From positions 1,150,696-1,214,695 of the forward strand of contig NZ_JARPUQ010000001.1 in the NCBI RefSeq assembly GCF_029537735.1: a stretch of DNA of 64,000 bases, given 5' to 3'. The number at the start of each line of letters is the position of its first letter. The stretch's first letter is position 1. This DNA comes from Robiginitalea aestuariiviva. Lineage in GTDB: Bacteria > Bacteroidota > Bacteroidia > Flavobacteriales > Flavobacteriaceae. The notes under the pieces are model-generated. The model searched no databases. It was not told the origin of the DNA and was given only the letters and a program-made list of their open reading frames with translations. A program made the translations under genes and the position numbers. Positions 47,222 through 53,105 of the stretch are shown here, piece after piece.

Positions 47222-47482
47222 ATGAACGTTTCCGTGGAATTGACGCTGAGCCCGCTGCAGGATCAGTACGAAGCCGAGATTATCCGCTTTATCAAAGCCC
47301 TGAGGGCCTCTGGCCTCACAGTGTTGGAAAACCCCCTGAGTACCCAGGTATTCGGAGAGTACCGGGAGGTGATGTCTCTGCTTCAGGAGGAGATGGAACG
47401 GAGTTTGCAACGGGTGGAGCAGGCCGTTTTTTTCATCAAGATGGTCAAAACGGACCGCAGCGATTATGAGCCCCATTTTTGA
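47222..47482 (+). CDS. YkoF/MTH1187-like thiamine-binding protein
   Basis: An 86-residue ferredoxin-like protein: MNVSVELTLSPLQDQYEAEIIRFIKALRASGLTVLENPLSTQVFGEY, as in the small MTH1187/YkoF family that binds thiamine or its hydroxymethylpyrimidine. It has no signal peptide, so it would act in the cytosol. Its end overlaps pnuC by 17 bases, and the TPP-riboswitch receptor lies 3.4 kb downstream; both facts support a thiamine role. Binding itself is inferred from the family. Confidence 0.72.
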   Translation: MNVSVELTLSPLQDQYEAEIIRFIKALRASGLTVLENPLSTQVFGEYREVMSLLQEEMERSLQRVEQAVFFIKMVKTDRSDYEPHF

Positions 47483-48098
47483 CTTCTTTTTTGATCCCTA
47501 CCGCCAGCGGGAGGTGCACCTGATTATCCTGGAGGCCATTGCCTTTTTTTTCGGCATTGCCAGCGTGGTTTATGCCAAACGGGAGCATATCTGGGTATAC
47601 CCGACAGGCTTGATTGCCACGGTGATCACCATGTATATTTTCCTGCAGGACGAATTGCTGGGCGATATGATGCTGAATTTGTACTACTCCCTGATGAGCA
47701 TCTATGGCTGGTGGAACTGGTCCCGTAAAAAAGGGGGGGAGCACCTGGTGCATATTTCCCGGACCACTCCCCGGGAAAAGGCCATAGGGGTAGTCCTGTT
47801 TGTGCTGACCGTAGGGGTTACCTACGGTGTTTACCGCCTGTTTGGCACCCGCATTGACTGGACCAACTACCTGGATATGGTTACTTCCGGCATTTTCTTT
47901 ACAGCCATGTGGTACATGGCCCTGAAAAAAATCGAAAACTGGACGCTCTGGATTCTGGCAGACGTCATTACCGTGCCTCTGTACGCATACCGGGGCTGGG
48001 GGATGCTTTCCCTTCAATACCTGATTTTCACCCTGCTCGCAATACAAGGATACATCGCATGGAAGAAACACTTGGCCAACAGGCTTCAGACCTCGTAA
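47466..48098 (+). CDS. PnuC-family vitamin transporter (probably PnuT, thiamine)
   Basis: A 210-residue inner-membrane protein with seven or eight hydrophobic segments and PnuC motifs: FFFGIASVVYAKREHIWVYPTGLIATVITMYIF, LNLYYSLMSIYGWWNW (the W-x-x-W substrate site), TSGIFFTAMWYMALKKIENWTLWILADVITVPLY. PnuC proteins take up nicotinamide riboside and PnuT members take up thiamine by facilitated diffusion, with a kinase trapping the substrate. Neighbours suggest thiamine: a thiamine-binding protein in front and a TPP-controlled receptor behind. It overlaps the kinase gene by 40 bases. Confidence 0.85.
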   Translation: MSPIFDFFFDPYRQREVHLIILEAIAFFFGIASVVYAKREHIWVYPTGLIATVITMYIFLQDELLGDMMLNLYYSLMSIYGWWNWSRKKGGEHLVHISRTTPREKAIGVVLFVLTVGVTYGVYRLFGTRIDWTNYLDMVTSGIFFTAMWYMALKKIENWTLWILADVITVPLYAYRGWGMLSLQYLIFTLLAIQGYIAWKKHLANRLQTS

Positions 48099-50167
48099 AA
48101 GTGGTCCTTTTTGGCCCGGAGAGCACAGGGAAAACCACCCTGGCTGCGCGCCTGGCCGAACATTACCAGACGCTTTGGGTCCCGGAATATGCCAGGGAAT
48201 ACCTGCAGGAGAAGTGGGATCGCACCGGGAAGACTTGCGAAAACCACGATCTGATCCCCATTGCCAGGGGTCAGATTCGACTGGAGAACGAAGCGGCCAC
48301 CCGGGCGGAGCGGTTGCTGATCTGCGATACGGACCTGCTGGAAACCAAGGTGTATTCGGAAACGTATTACGGAGGGTTTTGCGACCCGCTATTGGAGGAA
48401 TACGCCCTGAAAAACACTTATGACCTCTATTTTCTGACGGATATTGATGTGCCCTGGGAAGCGGACGATTTGCGGGATCGCCCTCACCAGCGCGAGGAGA
48501 TGTTTGCCTATTTCAAAGGGGCCCTGGAGCATGCCAACCGAAGATTTGTTATTTTAAGGGGCAGCCTTGAACAGCGGCTGGAGAAAGCGATTTCCCACAT
48601 CGACAACCTATTGATCATGCACGAATTTTCACCCGAAGACCTAGAATTCATGAAAACCCAGGGGTACTCCCCTGAAAAAGCCGCCAAACAGATCGAGATT
48701 TTCCGGGAGGGGATTCCCCCGGTGAAGCTCAGTAAAGCAGCGGTTGTGGGCGATGGTATCCTGCGGCTCTCCCAGGAAAGGCAGGAGGCGCTGCTGACGC
48801 GCTTCCGCAACCAAAGGGATGCCCTGAAGGTGGTTAAGTTTACCCCGGCTTCCGGGGCAGCATCCCGGATGTTCAAGGCCCTTTTCGGATTTCTGGATAG
48901 CTTCAACCCCGGGAAGGATTCCCTGGAGGCCTACCTGAAGCAGCCGGAACACGCGGATATAAAGACCTTCTATGATGGCCTGGAGGATTTTCCGTTTTAT
49001 GAGCAGGTCAGGGCGATGCGCTCTCAAGACCCCTCAGACCCCGGGGCTTTCCTGCACGCCTTTGTTTCGGAACTCCTGTCCGAATCCGGGATGAACTATG
49101 GTTTTTACCCCAAGGGCCTGTTGGCGTTCCACCGTTATGGAAAGAACCTGGCTACACCTTTTGAAGAACACCTCTATGAAGGGGCTGCGTATGCGCAGGC
49201 CAAAGGGACCGCACACCTGCATTTTACCATTTCCCCCCAGCATGAGGCTTTGTTCCGGGAGGAATACCAGCGGGCGGGGCAGTCGGTTTCCCAGGCTACT
49301 TCCTGCAGGTTTGAGGTAGGTTTTTCCTTTCAGAAACCCGCTACGGATACCCTTGCCGTTACCCCGGAAAATGAACCCTTCCGGGACGAAAACGGCCAGC
49401 TCCTGTTCCGGCCCGGGGGGCATGGCGCCCTGATCGAAAACCTGGACGAGCAGGACGCCGATGTCCTTTTCATCAAAAACATAGACAATGTGGTGGTGCG
49501 CACAGCTCAGGAGGACGTAGCGCGATGGAAGGAAATCCTTGGGGGCTTGTTGCTGGAACTGCAGGAGGAGGCCTTTCGCTATGCCCGCATGCTGGAGGAA
49601 GGCAGCCTGGATCTGGATTTGCTTATGCGTATCCGTGATTTCCTGCGGGATCGGCTTAATGTGCGTTTCCCGGAGTCATACCACCGCCTGAGCCCGGACG
49701 ATCAGGTGGCCGTATTAAAGGACAAGCTCAACCGTCCCCTCCGGGTTTGCGGTATGGTTCGCAACGAAGGAGAGCCAGGTGGTGGCCCGTTCTGGATTCA
49801 GGATGTTTCCGGGAATGAATCCCTGCAGATCGTGGAGTCTGCACAGGTAGATTTACAGGATGCCTCCCAACAGGAACTTTTTAAAGATTCCACCCACTTT
49901 AACCCGGTAGATCTGGTGTGCGGGGTAAGGGACGCCTATGGCAAGAAATATCTTCTGCAGCATTTTGTGGACGAACGCCAGGGCTTCATTACCGGAAAGA
50001 CCTACGAGGGCCGCCCCCTCAAGGCCCTAGAGCTGCCCGGACTCTGGAATGGGGGTATGGCCTTTTGGAACACGGTATTTGCTGAGGTTCCGGTGAGCAC
50101 CTTCAACCCGGTTAAAACCGTGAATGACCTGCTAAAGCCCGCCCATAAGGGTAAGGGCGGGGAGTAA
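48059..50167 (+). CDS. Fusion of NadR-like P-loop kinase and DUF4301
   Basis: A 702-residue two-part protein from the ATG at 48059. Residues 13-185 resemble the ribosylnicotinamide-kinase domain of NadR: Walker A GPESTGKT (19-26), WVPEYAREYL, ICDTDLLETKVYSETYYG. From about 187 (MHEFSPEDLEFMKTQGYSPEKAAKQIEIFREGIPPVKL) to the end it is DUF4301, with FTPASGAASRMFKAL, NIDNVV and the GGGPFWIQD segment. In most relatives I recall these as two adjacent genes. No stop lies at the joint, and Met187 could allow internal initiation. Kinase substrate is probably the vitamin brought in by PnuC/PnuT. Confidence 0.82.
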   Translation: MEETLGQQASDLVKVVLFGPESTGKTTLAARLAEHYQTLWVPEYAREYLQEKWDRTGKTCENHDLIPIARGQIRLENEAATRAERLLICDTDLLETKVYSETYYGGFCDPLLEEYALKNTYDLYFLTDIDVPWEADDLRDRPHQREEMFAYFKGALEHANRRFVILRGSLEQRLEKAISHIDNLLIMHEFSPEDLEFMKTQGYSPEKAAKQIEIFREGIPPVKLSKAAVVGDGILRLSQERQEALLTRFRNQRDALKVVKFTPASGAASRMFKALFGFLDSFNPGKDSLEAYLKQPEHADIKTFYDGLEDFPFYEQVRAMRSQDPSDPGAFLHAFVSELLSESGMNYGFYPKGLLAFHRYGKNLATPFEEHLYEGAAYAQAKGTAHLHFTISPQHEALFREEYQRAGQSVSQATSCRFEVGFSFQKPATDTLAVTPENEPFRDENGQLLFRPGGHGALIENLDEQDADVLFIKNIDNVVVRTAQEDVARWKEILGGLLLELQEEAFRYARMLEEGSLDLDLLMRIRDFLRDRLNVRFPESYHRLSPDDQVAVLKDKLNRPLRVCGMVRNEGEPGGGPFWIQDVSGNESLQIVESAQVDLQDASQQELFKDSTHFNPVDLVCGVRDAYGKKYLLQHFVDERQGFITGKTYEGRPLKALELPGLWNGGMAFWNTVFAEVPVSTFNPVKTVNDLLKPAHKGKGGE

Positions 50168-50280: not shown

Positions 50281-50481
50281 GTGAACACTTTTAAACGCGC
50301 TGCCATGATATATCTGCTCTTTTGTGCGGTCACCCTCATGCTTTTGCTGAGTTACACCCACAACAAACGATCCTCCGGCACCCCGGAAGCTATAGAACAG
50401 CTGAAAGAAAAGGATTCGACTATACTAGCACTAACCATAGTCTATCCGATTTCGGAACCCCTGTCCCGGTTTGCGAAGTAG
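50281..50481 (+). CDS. Possible small membrane protein
   Basis: A weak candidate: 66 residues from a GTG at 50281 (MNTFKRAAMIYLLFCAVTLMLLLSYTHN), with one hydrophobic segment (about 9-25) and a charged tail ending EPLSRFAK. The open frame continues upstream to 50197, but that piece translates the preceding terminator. It lies between two intrinsic terminators in a 700-base stretch otherwise without a gene. No TAnnTTTG box was found, and it may be noncoding. Confidence 0.3.
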   Translation: MNTFKRAAMIYLLFCAVTLMLLLSYTHNKRSSGTPEAIEQLKEKDSTILALTIVYPISEPLSRFAK

Positions 50482-50488
50482 TTTCTAA

Positions 50489-50532
50489 GGGACCATGGCG
50501 AGTACCTGCGGCTTAGGCCAAGGGTTGGTCCC
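50489..50532 (+). other. Stem-loop upstream of a terminator (possible small RNA)
   Basis: GGGACCA (50489-50495) pairs with TGGTCCC (50526-50532), with an inner TGGC/GCCA stem (496-499 with 517-520). It stands 37 bases before a terminator and could be the 3' part of a small transcript. No family is recognised. Confidence 0.35.
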
Positions 50533-50569
50533 GGCGAACGCTTTTTATGGACGGGGGCTTCTGAAAGCC

Positions 50570-50599
50570 AACCCCGGGAAAATTTCCCGGGGTTTTTTT
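50570..50599 (+). terminator. Intrinsic terminator of an orphan transcript
   Basis: A nearly perfect palindrome, AACCCCGGGAA and TTCCCGGGGTT around AATT/AAA, with a seven-base T-run. It ends something transcribed from 50220-50560, because the kinase operon already has its own terminator. Confidence 0.9.
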
Positions 50600-50610
50600 G
50601 TGTCCGTACT

Positions 50611-50640
50611 TTTGGGGCGTTGCCATCCGGCGTATATTTG
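50611..50640 (+). promoter_or_regulatory. Promoter of the TPP-controlled receptor (-33 TTTG, -7 TATATTTG)
   Basis: TTTG at 50611-50614, an 18-base spacer and TATATTTG at 50633-50640 form the best Bacteroidota promoter in the window. Transcription should begin near 50646, right at the 5' side of the riboswitch. Confidence 0.75.
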
Positions 50641-50647
50641 CAGGGTC

Positions 50648-50726
50648 TCATAAGGGGTGCTCCGCGCAGCGGGGCTGAGATTATACCCGATGAACCTGGG
50701 CAGGTAATGCTGCCAAGGGAAATCCG
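50648..50726 (+). ncRNA. TPP (THI-box) riboswitch
   Basis: The core thiamine-pyrophosphate aptamer is readable: GGGGTGC (50654-50660), a CCGC/GCGG P3 stem (662-665 with 669-672), GCTGAGA (50674-50680), TACCC and TGAACCTG (about 50684-50698), a GGCAG/CTGCC stem (699-703 with 710-714) enclosing GTAATG, and AGGGA (50716-50720). The closing P1 helix is weak by eye. It heads a leader of about 225 bases before the TonB receptor gene and has no T-run terminator, so control is probably at translation. When TPP is high, receptor synthesis should fall. Confidence 0.93.
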
Positions 50727-50850
50727 GAAATGCAATCCGCTTCAGGCGGTAGCAGTCGGAACGAGCTGCCCGGGCCTTTGCCCGGCAACTTCACGACAAG
50801 GCGGTGCAGATGCCGCAAAACCGAGTTTAACCAGAATAATGGCCCCTTTT

Positions 50851-50872
50851 ATTCGTAATGTATTTTACGAAT
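50851..50872 (+). promoter_or_regulatory. Hairpin sequestering the receptor start codon
   Basis: ATTCGTAA (50851-50858) and TTACGAAT (50865-50872) form an 8-bp stem with a six-base loop; the 3' arm includes the first two bases of the ATG (50871-50873). In a lineage with little Shine-Dalgarno use, hiding the start codon could be the expression platform of the riboswitch. Confidence 0.6.
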
Positions 50873-53105
50873 GAAACGCATTTATTCCTTAGTAGCCATC
50901 GTTGGGCTGGCTACGCAATCCATGGCCCAGCAACAGGAGCAGGACACCGTCCTGCAGGATCAGATTAACCTGGACGAAGTTCTGGTTTCGGCGGTACGCG
51001 CCGGGCAGGACGCGCCGGTAACCTTCTCTAATTTAAAGGCCGAGCGTATTCGCAGCCGCAACCTGGGGCAGGACATCCCCATCCTGATGAATTTCCTGCC
51101 ATCGGTAGTGACCACCTCGGATGCCGGGGCGGGTATAGGGTATACCGGTATCCGGGTGCGAGGCAGTGATGCCACCCGGGTGAACATCACCATAAACGGC
51201 ATCCCCTATAACGATGCGGAATCCCAGGGGACCTTCTGGGTAAACATGCCGGATTTTGCTTCGTCTACGGAAAGCCTGCAATTGCAAAGGGGTGTGGGGA
51301 CTTCCACCAACGGGGCCGGGGCCTTTGGGGCCAGCCTCAATTTGCTTACCGACGCCGTTGCACGCAAAGCCTATGCCGAAGTGGCGGGCTCTGCCGGCAG
51401 CTTTGGCACCCACAAGGCCACGCTGAAATTCAGCACAGGTGTTTTGGGCCAGGGGTTTGAGCTCAGCGGCCGCCTTTCGCGTATCGCCTCGGACGGCTAC
51501 ATTGACCGGGCATCCTCCGACCTGGATTCCTATTTCCTGCAAGGGGCGTATGTAGACAGCAACACCCTGGTGAAAGCCCTGCTCTTTGGAGGGCACGAGA
51601 TTACCTATCAGTCGTGGTACGGGTTTGACCCTGCCGTGTTGGGCGCTATTGGGGTAGACGCCAGCCTGGAAACCAACCGCAGGTACAATGTGGCGGGCAT
51701 CCAATTTGACGATGCCGGGAATTTTGAGGGGTTCTACGAGAACCAGGTAGACAACTACAAACAGGATCACTTCCAGCTGCACTGGAGCGAAAGCTGGAGC
51801 CCGGCCCTGCGTACCAACCTGGCCCTGCACTATACCCGGGGGAGGGGCTTTTTTGAGGAATACGTAGACGACTGGTATTACACCAATGTCTTTTTTGCCC
51901 CGGATGCCCAGCTGGATTTCCTGGGGCAGCCTGCCGTGGAGGTAGACGGGCAAACGCGGTCCTCCACCGATTACATCCGCCGCCGTTGGCTGGACAATGA
52001 CTTCTACGGCACTGTATTTTCTGCGAGGTACCAGGCAGAGGAGCTGCAGGTAACCCTGGGCGGCGGCTGGAATACCTACCGCGGCGATCATTTCGGGGAA
52101 GTGCTCTGGGCCCGCTATGCCCCGGGCATTAACCGGGGGGACCGGTATTACCAGGACGATTCCCGCAAGGACGACGGCAACCTTTTCCTGAAGGCCGATT
52201 ACCAATTCGGGGAGGCCTGGCGCGTATTTGCGGACCTGCAATACCGCGGGGTGCAGTACCAGGCCAATGGGGCGGAGACCGGCCTGGTAGACGACCGTTT
52301 TAACTTCTTTAACCCCAAGGCCGGGATTACCTACGGCCTGGGAGCAGGGCAGGACCTTTACTTTTCCTATGCCGTGGCCAACCGGGAGCCCAACCGGAAC
52401 GACTACGAAAACGGGAACCCCCGGCCGGAACAGCTCCAGGATTTTGAACTGGGGTGGCGATGGACCAAACCCGGCACCAGCCTGCGGGTAAATGCCTATT
52501 ACATGCGCTATAAGGATCAATTGGTGTTAACCGGAGAACTCAACGATGTAGGCGCTCCGCTGCGCGCCAATGTTGGGGATTCCTACCGTACAGGTATTGA
52601 GTTGGATGCGGCATTGCGGCTGGGTCCCAAATGGGAATGGCAACCCAACCTGGCTCTGAGTGTAAACCGCAATGTCGATTTCTTTTTCCGCCGGGACGGG
52701 GAACTGCGGGACCTCGGGAATACCGAAATAGCCTATTCTCCGGGTGTTGTAGGAGCCAGCAGGCTGGTATACCGGCCCTCGGAGGCCTGGCAAGTGGCCC
52801 TGCTCACCAAGTATGTGGGCGACCAGTACATGAGCAATATCGAGGCCGAGCGGTCTCGCCTGGATGCGTACTGGCAAACCGATGTAAACCTGCAATACGT
52901 CATTCCCGCATCCGGGCGTATGCCGGAAATTGCCCTGAACCTGCTGGTGAACAACCTCCTGGATGCCCAGTTCAGTTCCAATGGGTATTTCTATACCTAT
53001 GACGACGATTTCAGCAACCCGGGCACCATTACCACCATTGAAGGGGTGGGGTACTATCCCCAGGCGGGCATACACTTCCTGGCCGGGGCTACCGTGCGGT
53101 TTTAA
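50871..53105 (+). CDS. TonB-dependent receptor under TPP riboswitch (Omr1-like thiamine receptor)
   Basis: A 744-residue outer-membrane receptor: signal peptide MKRIYSLVAIVGLATQSMAQ, TonB-box-like LDEVLVSAVRA, plug with YTGIRVRGSDATRVNITINGIPYNDAESQGTFWVNMPDFASS and GVGTSTNGAGAFGASLNL, then a 22-strand-type barrel ending FLAGATVRF. The TPP riboswitch in its leader implies that it imports thiamine or a precursor across the outer membrane, in line with the riboswitch-linked Omr1 receptors described for Bacteroidota. Its stop overlaps the Rieske-like gene's stop in TTAA. Confidence 0.92.
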   Translation: MKRIYSLVAIVGLATQSMAQQQEQDTVLQDQINLDEVLVSAVRAGQDAPVTFSNLKAERIRSRNLGQDIPILMNFLPSVVTTSDAGAGIGYTGIRVRGSDATRVNITINGIPYNDAESQGTFWVNMPDFASSTESLQLQRGVGTSTNGAGAFGASLNLLTDAVARKAYAEVAGSAGSFGTHKATLKFSTGVLGQGFELSGRLSRIASDGYIDRASSDLDSYFLQGAYVDSNTLVKALLFGGHEITYQSWYGFDPAVLGAIGVDASLETNRRYNVAGIQFDDAGNFEGFYENQVDNYKQDHFQLHWSESWSPALRTNLALHYTRGRGFFEEYVDDWYYTNVFFAPDAQLDFLGQPAVEVDGQTRSSTDYIRRRWLDNDFYGTVFSARYQAEELQVTLGGGWNTYRGDHFGEVLWARYAPGINRGDRYYQDDSRKDDGNLFLKADYQFGEAWRVFADLQYRGVQYQANGAETGLVDDRFNFFNPKAGITYGLGAGQDLYFSYAVANREPNRNDYENGNPRPEQLQDFELGWRWTKPGTSLRVNAYYMRYKDQLVLTGELNDVGAPLRANVGDSYRTGIELDAALRLGPKWEWQPNLALSVNRNVDFFFRRDGELRDLGNTEIAYSPGVVGASRLVYRPSEAWQVALLTKYVGDQYMSNIEAERSRLDAYWQTDVNLQYVIPASGRMPEIALNLLVNNLLDAQFSSNGYFYTYDDDFSNPGTITTIEGVGYYPQAGIHFLAGATVRF

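Follow-up and report, generated by a model that had tools for sequence, protein, structure and literature searches.

How does a riboswitch aptamer control a gene whose leader offers no terminator? The question is raised by a TonB-dependent receptor gene of Robiginitalea aestuariiviva, located in a window of 64,000 nucleotides (nt) of contig NZ_JARPUQ010000001.1. An initial annotation of this window had placed a thiamine pyrophosphate (TPP) aptamer in the receptor leader, and cmscan identified it as RF00059 (43.6 bits, E 2.9e-6, model positions 1–105), though below the gathering cut-off of 54.3. The same annotation had seen no terminator hairpin, in agreement with our pattern scan, which found no intrinsic terminator between aptamer and gene (50738–50870); the sole terminator-like site of 50400–50900 lies 5′ of the aptamer, at 50570–50594. 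Transcription attenuation was rejected on this ground. On reading the sequence, with no separate scan run, we saw no Shine-Dalgarno-like purine run 5′ of the ATG. We propose that the leader is probably a TPP-controlled translational OFF switch of a thiamine-type TonB receptor, in which two hairpins, H2 and H1, are swapped by way of a C-rich element; its dependence on TPP is a prediction.

H2 covers the start codon. The initial annotation had described an 8-bp stem over two bases of the ATG, and this stem is present (ATTCGTAA, 50851–50858, with TTACGAAT, 50865–50872, around a loop of 6 nt) but was understated. It extends outward by T.G, T-A, T-A and T-A to 12 pairs, and all three bases of the receptor ATG are paired in both the minimum free energy (MFE) and the centroid structure. 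The hairpin begins 110 nt 3′ of the aptamer. For comparison we used 329 ATG starts, drawn from the window and from twenty 20-kb segments of its genome and crudely called as the longest ATG start of frames of at least 150 codons. As 21 of these starts carry a stem of at least 8 ungapped pairs over the ATG, such a stem is not rare; 12 pairs were found at one start, that of the receptor itself. An out-of-frame ATG (50858–50860), 13 nt ahead of the start, lies where the H2 stem passes into its loop.

The competitor of this stem, H1, and a C-rich element complementary to the aptamer had been missed. H1 pairs GAAUAA with UUAUUC, and because the 5′ arm of H2 contains UUAUUC as well, the two hairpins are mutually exclusive. 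The loop of H1 contains an element, RCCYCUU, with complementarity to AAGGGGU, which forms the 5′ strand of helix P2 in the aptamer. The predicted duplex has an energy of −11.6 kcal/mol at the locus and of −11.2 kcal/mol on average in the Flavobacteriaceae.

We then asked whether these structures are kept in relatives. Receptor orthologues with TPP leaders are present across the family, with receptor matches in 36 of the 40 genomes searched; the nearest named relatives of the receptor are Flavobacteriaceae (Eudoraea, Maribacter, Flavobacterium) at no more than 65% identity. From the sub-cut-off aptamer places listed, 80 were fetched, 70 of which precede a receptor orthologue, and 59 of these 70 carry the module GAATAATNRCCYCTTTT(T)ATTCG..loop..CGAATGAAA. 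All 59 entered an alignment, together with 24 modules from other searches. The resulting 83 modules (family set f1) are what was left of 89 regular-expression rows after L026, L029, L031, L032, L079 and L134 had been omitted as spurious or divergent; the module position in L005 was set by hand. The distance from the aptamer GAACC to the C-core ranges from 47 to 219 nt, with the module retained. The ATG is fully paired in the MFE structure of 80 of the 83 modules (exceptions L101, L109 and L118), and its mean pairing probability is 0.96, compared with 0.54 when the upstream parts are dinucleotide-shuffled. In a MAFFT alignment, which is not fitted to structure, 61 cells of H2 are changed on both sides. 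The H2 covariation score, counted on one structure whose register is broken by a bulge in the CCUC subclass, was 0.138 versus 0.073 in shuffles that leave shared ancestry in place (0 of 500 as high) and 0.025–0.080 with slid partners. The number of pairs with double changes (5 vs 3.3 in shuffles; 15/500) is less decisive. G-U pairs occur in H2, and its loops measure 3 to 11 nt.

A model of the module, R1, was built from the 83-module alignment. It adds degenerate modules in L134 (E 0.0069) and L098 (E 1e-4) to the 59 of 70 leaders above. At E ≤ 0.1 it has matches in 79 of the 246 genomes of the order, of which 40 are from the same family; the order genomes listed as lacking a match belong only to other families. 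An aptamer lies upstream at each of the 30 family R1 loci examined. We also took 80 named receptor loci, each of which differs from every modelled leader when compared over 120 nt: R1 matched the start region in all 80 at E ≤ 1 and in 77 at E ≤ 0.003. The alignment of these named loci (A4) was given little weight, because it was fitted to the model and mixes in opposite-strand matches, which occur at 32 of the 80 loci and are mostly weak. Two records, titled as Klebsiella pneumoniae and Chitinophaga pinensis metagenome-assembled genomes (L294, L313), hold Flavobacteriaceae-type receptor loci and are likely mislabelled bins. Inside the leaders of 40 other TPP aptamers (30 high-scoring, 10 non-receptor) R1 found no match; four matches at these loci (best E 0.0071) all lie outside the leader by position. 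Eight weaker matches outside the family were examined (L173–L180), five at a TPP receptor leader (L173–L176, L178) and three not. The stem is therefore kept in orthologous leaders with compensatory changes, on the receptor start and behind a TPP aptamer, one of the two things that the initial annotation had named as support.

The evidence for H1 within Flavobacteriaceae is modest when taken alone: 94.6% of cells pair, and 4 are double-changed versus 0.7 in shuffles (1/500). Arm swapping within the family was weak for H2 (0.28 of swaps as stable) and uninformative for H1 (0.79), and tells little because both hairpins are nearly invariant there. Stronger evidence for H1 comes from other families of the order. 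Arms of quite different letters enclose the C-rich loop in f7 (GCGAGTAA:TTATTCGT, CACGGGTAAC:GTTACTTGTG, CAGGTAA:TTACTTG, CACGT:ACGTG) and in f11 (CATGCAT:ATGCGTG, CAAGT:ACTTG), and arms CGAG:CTCG enclose it in f4, f7 and f14. Native arms were more stable than swapped ones in f2 (−3.9 vs −0.2 kcal/mol, 3 leaders), f7 (−8.3 vs −5.1, 13), f14 (−6.0 vs −4.2, 2) and f11 (−5.9 vs −0.8, 6); there was little difference in f4 (1 leader) and none in f3 (1), and in f5 (12) native arms were worse than swapped. A blind search for C-rich-loop hairpins recovered them in 12/13 leaders of f7, 4/6 of f11, 2/2 of f14, 2/3 of f2, 1/1 of f3 and 0/1 of f4. H2 behaved similarly in swaps across families, with native and swapped energies of −9.0 and −3.2 kcal/mol in f1, −8.0 and −4.0 in f5, −9.3 and −5.3 in f7, −10.8 and −4.1 in f4, and −6.8 and −4.4 in f14. 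In L198 a GTG start lies within the same type of hairpin.

The element that would link the platform to the aptamer is strongly complementary to it, with sequences that have changed and still pair found only across orders. The C-core set comprised 38 of 56 divergent leaders, leaving out f8, f9, f10, f15 and L026 (16), L207 (no aptamer) and L197 (no C-core); L209 was skipped in the pairing test, giving 37, and L186 was fetched and went unused. The base just before the C-core is a purine in 80 of the 83 family leaders and in 33 of these 37 others, which fits pairing with U, while the base ahead of the purine is free. A CCUC core goes with a run of at least three A before GGGG in 34 of 35 leaders, and a CCCC core does so in 33 of 48 (Fisher p 0.0013), an association that shared ancestry may explain. 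Pairing of the 5′ leader, tested against shuffled downstream sequence, reached p ≤ 0.05 in 8/12 leaders of f5 and 2/6 of f11. In f5 most positions of the leader, which reads GAAATAAAGGGG in several cases, show complementarity to CCCCTTTTATTC, amounting to a direct strand swap.

At the level of sequence comparison, these data demonstrate conserved RNA hairpins, predicted to be mutually exclusive, one of them on the start codon, that are tied to the TPP aptamer of the receptor. In the mechanism we propose, binding of TPP would close helix P2 and leave the C-rich element free of the aptamer. Its downstream neighbour UUUUAUUC would then pair with GAAUGAAA, and the 30S subunit would have no access to the AUG. 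When TPP is lacking, the P2 strand AAGGGGU would pair with RCCYCUU in the loop and stabilise H1, which would withdraw AUUC from H2 and expose the AUG. In f5 the same swap would proceed without H1, with the 5′ leader pairing directly over a greater length. In a two-state energy model, which ignores the loop costs of the pseudoknot, the state with H1 and the pairing was on average 5.8 kcal/mol better than that with P2 and H2.

Several results weigh against this mechanism. Covariation between AAGGGGU and RCCYCUU was not found within families (native vs swapped p 0.80 in f1, 0.46 in f7 and 1.0 in f5); as swapped pairs do at least as well as native ones, it is conservation and not covariation that serves as evidence inside families. 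Pairing of the 5′ leader reached p ≤ 0.05 in only 32/83 leaders of f1 and 3/12 of f7, and sliding the H1 partner by +1 in f1 gives 10 double changes as opposed to 4, at 49% pairing. Nine of the 70 receptor leaders lack a full leader-strand R1 match at E ≤ 1, L064 having weak or partial ones only; 8 of the 70 are without the module and have, at this threshold, no R1 match beyond partial or opposite-strand ones; L140 has no R1 match, though by eye it looks like a loose variant. The blind search found H1 in 0/12 leaders of f5. H2 is absent in f11, and in f2 (3 leaders) and f3 (1) its native arms had no advantage over swapped arms. Inspection by eye, the only means used there, revealed no such module in f8, f9, f10 and f15. 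The f8 leaders (L210–L215, L184) have an AACTCC complementary to GGGAGTT at the aptamer 3′ end, a different candidate platform. Folding predictions point the same way: the MFE structure of the free leader already has H2, ATG pairing averages 0.91 in the ligand-free model, and it is 0.94 in silico with both pairing strands masked. With H1 forced (78 of 83 leaders, five having no H1 by a simple pattern) the ATG is still 0.66 paired. The ON state of the model is thus not cleanly open, and the order of folding during transcription would therefore have to matter.

Some of these points would suit a switch that does without a loop-aptamer pseudoknot, in which H2 is the TPP-controlled output, what replaces it without TPP is nothing more than H1 or a simple strand exchange with the 5′ leader, and the C-rich element serves some other purpose. 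The lack of covariation inside families fits such a switch, as do the conservation of H1 and H2 with one arm in common and the presence of H2 without H1 in f5. However, the C-rich element is kept while the arms of H1 change completely, its R and Y positions vary mostly within what pairing to GGGGU allows, and leader pairing with changed sequences occurs in f17, f20 and f29. We consider this version unlikely. It is more doubtful still that the hairpin lowers translation constitutively, unlinked to TPP, with the aptamer acting in some other manner such as Rho-dependent termination. The ligand-free predictions given above, in which H2 already forms, would be expected of a constitutive hairpin; against it, the module stands behind the receptor's TPP aptamer in 30/30 tested cases and not behind the 40 other TPP aptamers, has a strand in common with H1 and shows complementarity to the aptamer.

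Two further readings question whether the repeat acts as RNA at all. As a near-perfect palindrome with R1 matches on the opposite strand it might be an operator that a transcription factor binds as DNA. Loop lengths that vary from 3 to 11 nt, frequent one-sided changes to G-U, a bulge kept in one subclass and arms that differ wholly between families rule against this, and we regard an operator as very improbable. That the stem is a chance palindrome at a single start, for which the 21 starts with stems of 8 pairs or more might speak, is refuted by the pairing, covariation and conservation of H2 in 83 aligned and 80 named leaders, and we assign it practically no weight. The TPP-controlled swap of H2 and H1 remains the reading we favour.

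Does the platform reach beyond the order? We hand-picked 20 leaders from 19 families among the 98 genomes with a receptor match in the class; all 20 have a TPP aptamer (cmscan, E ≤ 0.05). C-loop hairpins were found in 10 of these leaders, from other orders, where 1.5 were expected, and pairing of the 5′ leader at p ≤ 0.05 in 7, where 1 was expected. The pairing strands differ in their letters: TAAACAGGGG with CCCCTGTTTA in L235, GCTAACTGGG with CTCGGTTGGC in L242 and CTTTAATACAGG with CCTGTATTAAGG in L234. In five of the 20 no C-loop hairpin passed the cut-off and leader pairing did not reach p ≤ 0.05 either, which counts against the proposed mechanism. In L241 (f26) a T-rich run comes after a C-loop hairpin with arms AGCAACC and GGTTGCT around TACCCC, so that the switch may take the form of a terminator there. 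It is a tentative suggestion, about as open to doubt as to belief, that Bacteroidia have a class-wide TPP platform of their own, in which a hairpin with a C-rich loop reads the unliganded aptamer through the exposed GGGG of P2 and, in much of Flavobacteriales, is coupled to a start-codon hairpin that is independent of Shine-Dalgarno pairing.

The closest known system is E. coli thiC. In its description, the ribosome-binding site (RBS) and AUG are sequestered in the TPP-bound state, a 5′ aptamer segment (the anti-P1 stem) pairs with a downstream part when ligand is lacking, and the order of folding during transcription is described as mattering (PMC5234074). The initial annotation was thus too strong in suggesting that standard riboswitch models make no provision for a blocked start codon. 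Like thiC, our leader would hide the start region when TPP is bound and may pair a 5′ aptamer segment downstream when it is not. They differ in that thiC hides RBS and AUG together, whereas at our locus the AUG itself is in the stem, with no visible Shine-Dalgarno sequence, and in that the aptamer strand is the GGGG of P2 here and P1 in thiC. As in a thiC-type platform, the start codon of our locus lies in a stem that is exclusive with an alternative fold, H2 and H1 sharing UUAUUC. We know of no counterpart of H1 with its C-rich loop.

Cobalamin riboswitches have a C-rich loop that forms a ligand-dependent pseudoknot with a partner outside the aptamer core and controls the output (PMC2258182). 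Pairing of a C-rich loop at a distance would be common to both; at our locus the loop belongs to the platform and its pairing would be opposed by the ligand. By title or abstract, no prior description of the platform was found in open-licence PMC text, and an earlier one may exist. The present leader looks functional and, as a probable translational TPP riboswitch, is ordinary in kind; its platform is new within the reach of our searches.

The aptamer itself belongs to a class that Rfam scores poorly. It shares with RF00059 the aptamer core, the CUGAGA and GAACCU motifs and a downstream transport gene, and differs in scoring under the cut-off and in having a 5′ UCUC in place of the P1 ACUUU..AAAGU of the high-scoring class. 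RF00059 matches occur at E ≤ 0.01 in 188 of 199 family genomes and exceed the cut-off in just 59; the source genome has no match above it. We therefore take the cut-off to be unfit for the receptor-class subclass and do not regard the aptamer of the locus as false. UCUC is present in 83/83 receptor leaders of f1, 11/12 of f7, 0/12 of f5 and 0/6 of f11, and in none of 20 readable leaders of the high-scoring class. Being complementary to the GAGA of the TPP pocket, it may hold the empty aptamer open. In a helix swap test, P1 of receptor-class aptamers gave −3.10 kcal/mol native and −2.57 swapped (26/82 at ≤ −4); this measure cannot separate the high-scoring class (20 readable leaders), whose P1 is invariant, and we do not claim that P1 is absent. 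The high-scoring leaders (L034–L058), which mostly have the P1 ACUUU..AAAGU, carry recurring downstream blocks of their own (AGUUGAAAA, CUUUUCA, UUUCAAAG), and this class apparently uses a second, different platform.

The features of the locus are compiled in Table 1. TAnnTTTG, presumably the consensus of the Bacteroidota-type −7 box, ends 12–16 nt 5′ of GGGG in 81 of 83 family leaders, and at the locus this box would put the transcript start just 5′ of the aptamer. A scan of the locus for sigma-70-type promoters found nothing, because it does not cover the Bacteroidota promoter type. On the same strand, 5′ of the receptor gene, 47466–48637 encodes a transporter of the PnuC type together with a NadR-like AAA protein, probably a thiamine-uptake cluster separated from the receptor by the strong terminator at 50570–50594. 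The region 50480–50601, ahead of this terminator, lies outside any convincing gene and could encode a small RNA; it had no Rfam match near the cut-off. Its GCGAGTACCT is also found in L005 at the same place and not in eight other loci of the same genus.

TABLE 1. Features of the receptor leader and gene (positions in the window).
Feature	Position	Strand	Basis and remarks
TATATTTG, Bacteroidota-type −7 box (TAnnTTTG)	50633–50640	+	Sequence; family leaders
TPP aptamer (RF00059)	50643–50737	+	cmscan; CTGAGA at 50675–50680
UCUCA, subclass-specific 5′ element	50646–50650	+	Complementary to aptamer UGAGA 50676–50680; role hypothetical
AAGGGGU, 5′ strand of helix P2	50652–50658	+	Duplex energy, conservation; candidate partner of the C-rich element
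Hairpin H1	50834–50854	+	GAAUAA 50834–50839 with UUAUUC 50849–50854; loop UGGCCCCUU
C-rich loop element RCCYCUU	50842–50848	+	Complementary to AAGGGGU
Start-codon hairpin H2	50847–50876	+	Arms 50847–50858 and 50865–50876, loop 50859–50864; shares UUAUUC with H1
TonB-dependent receptor gene (744 aa), regulated gene	50871–53105	+	Pfam PF00593, PF07715; ATG 50871–50873 within H2

For the family, most aptamers of this kind fall under the Rfam cut-off, and with so few genomes passing it, routine annotation would miss the receptor-class aptamers. For the phylum, a study on B. thetaiotaomicron states that the action of TPP riboswitches in Bacteroidetes is uncertain, and reports that thiamine did not significantly change the OMthi and pnuT mRNAs, in contrast to the biosynthetic operon (PMC5613172). 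By analogy with OMthi and PnuT, thiamine is the presumed substrate of our receptor (PMC5613172). An unresponsive receptor mRNA agrees with translational control and is no proof of it. The start-codon hairpin offers a concrete translational answer to that uncertainty. It shows how initiation could be placed under riboswitch control when Shine-Dalgarno sequences go unrecognised by the ribosome, in line with the tuning of initiation by start-region structure in F. johnsoniae (PMC6847099). If the class-wide platform is true, it would be a kissing-loop switch wired opposite to the cobalamin riboswitches, and it would explain a receptor mRNA that does not respond to thiamine.

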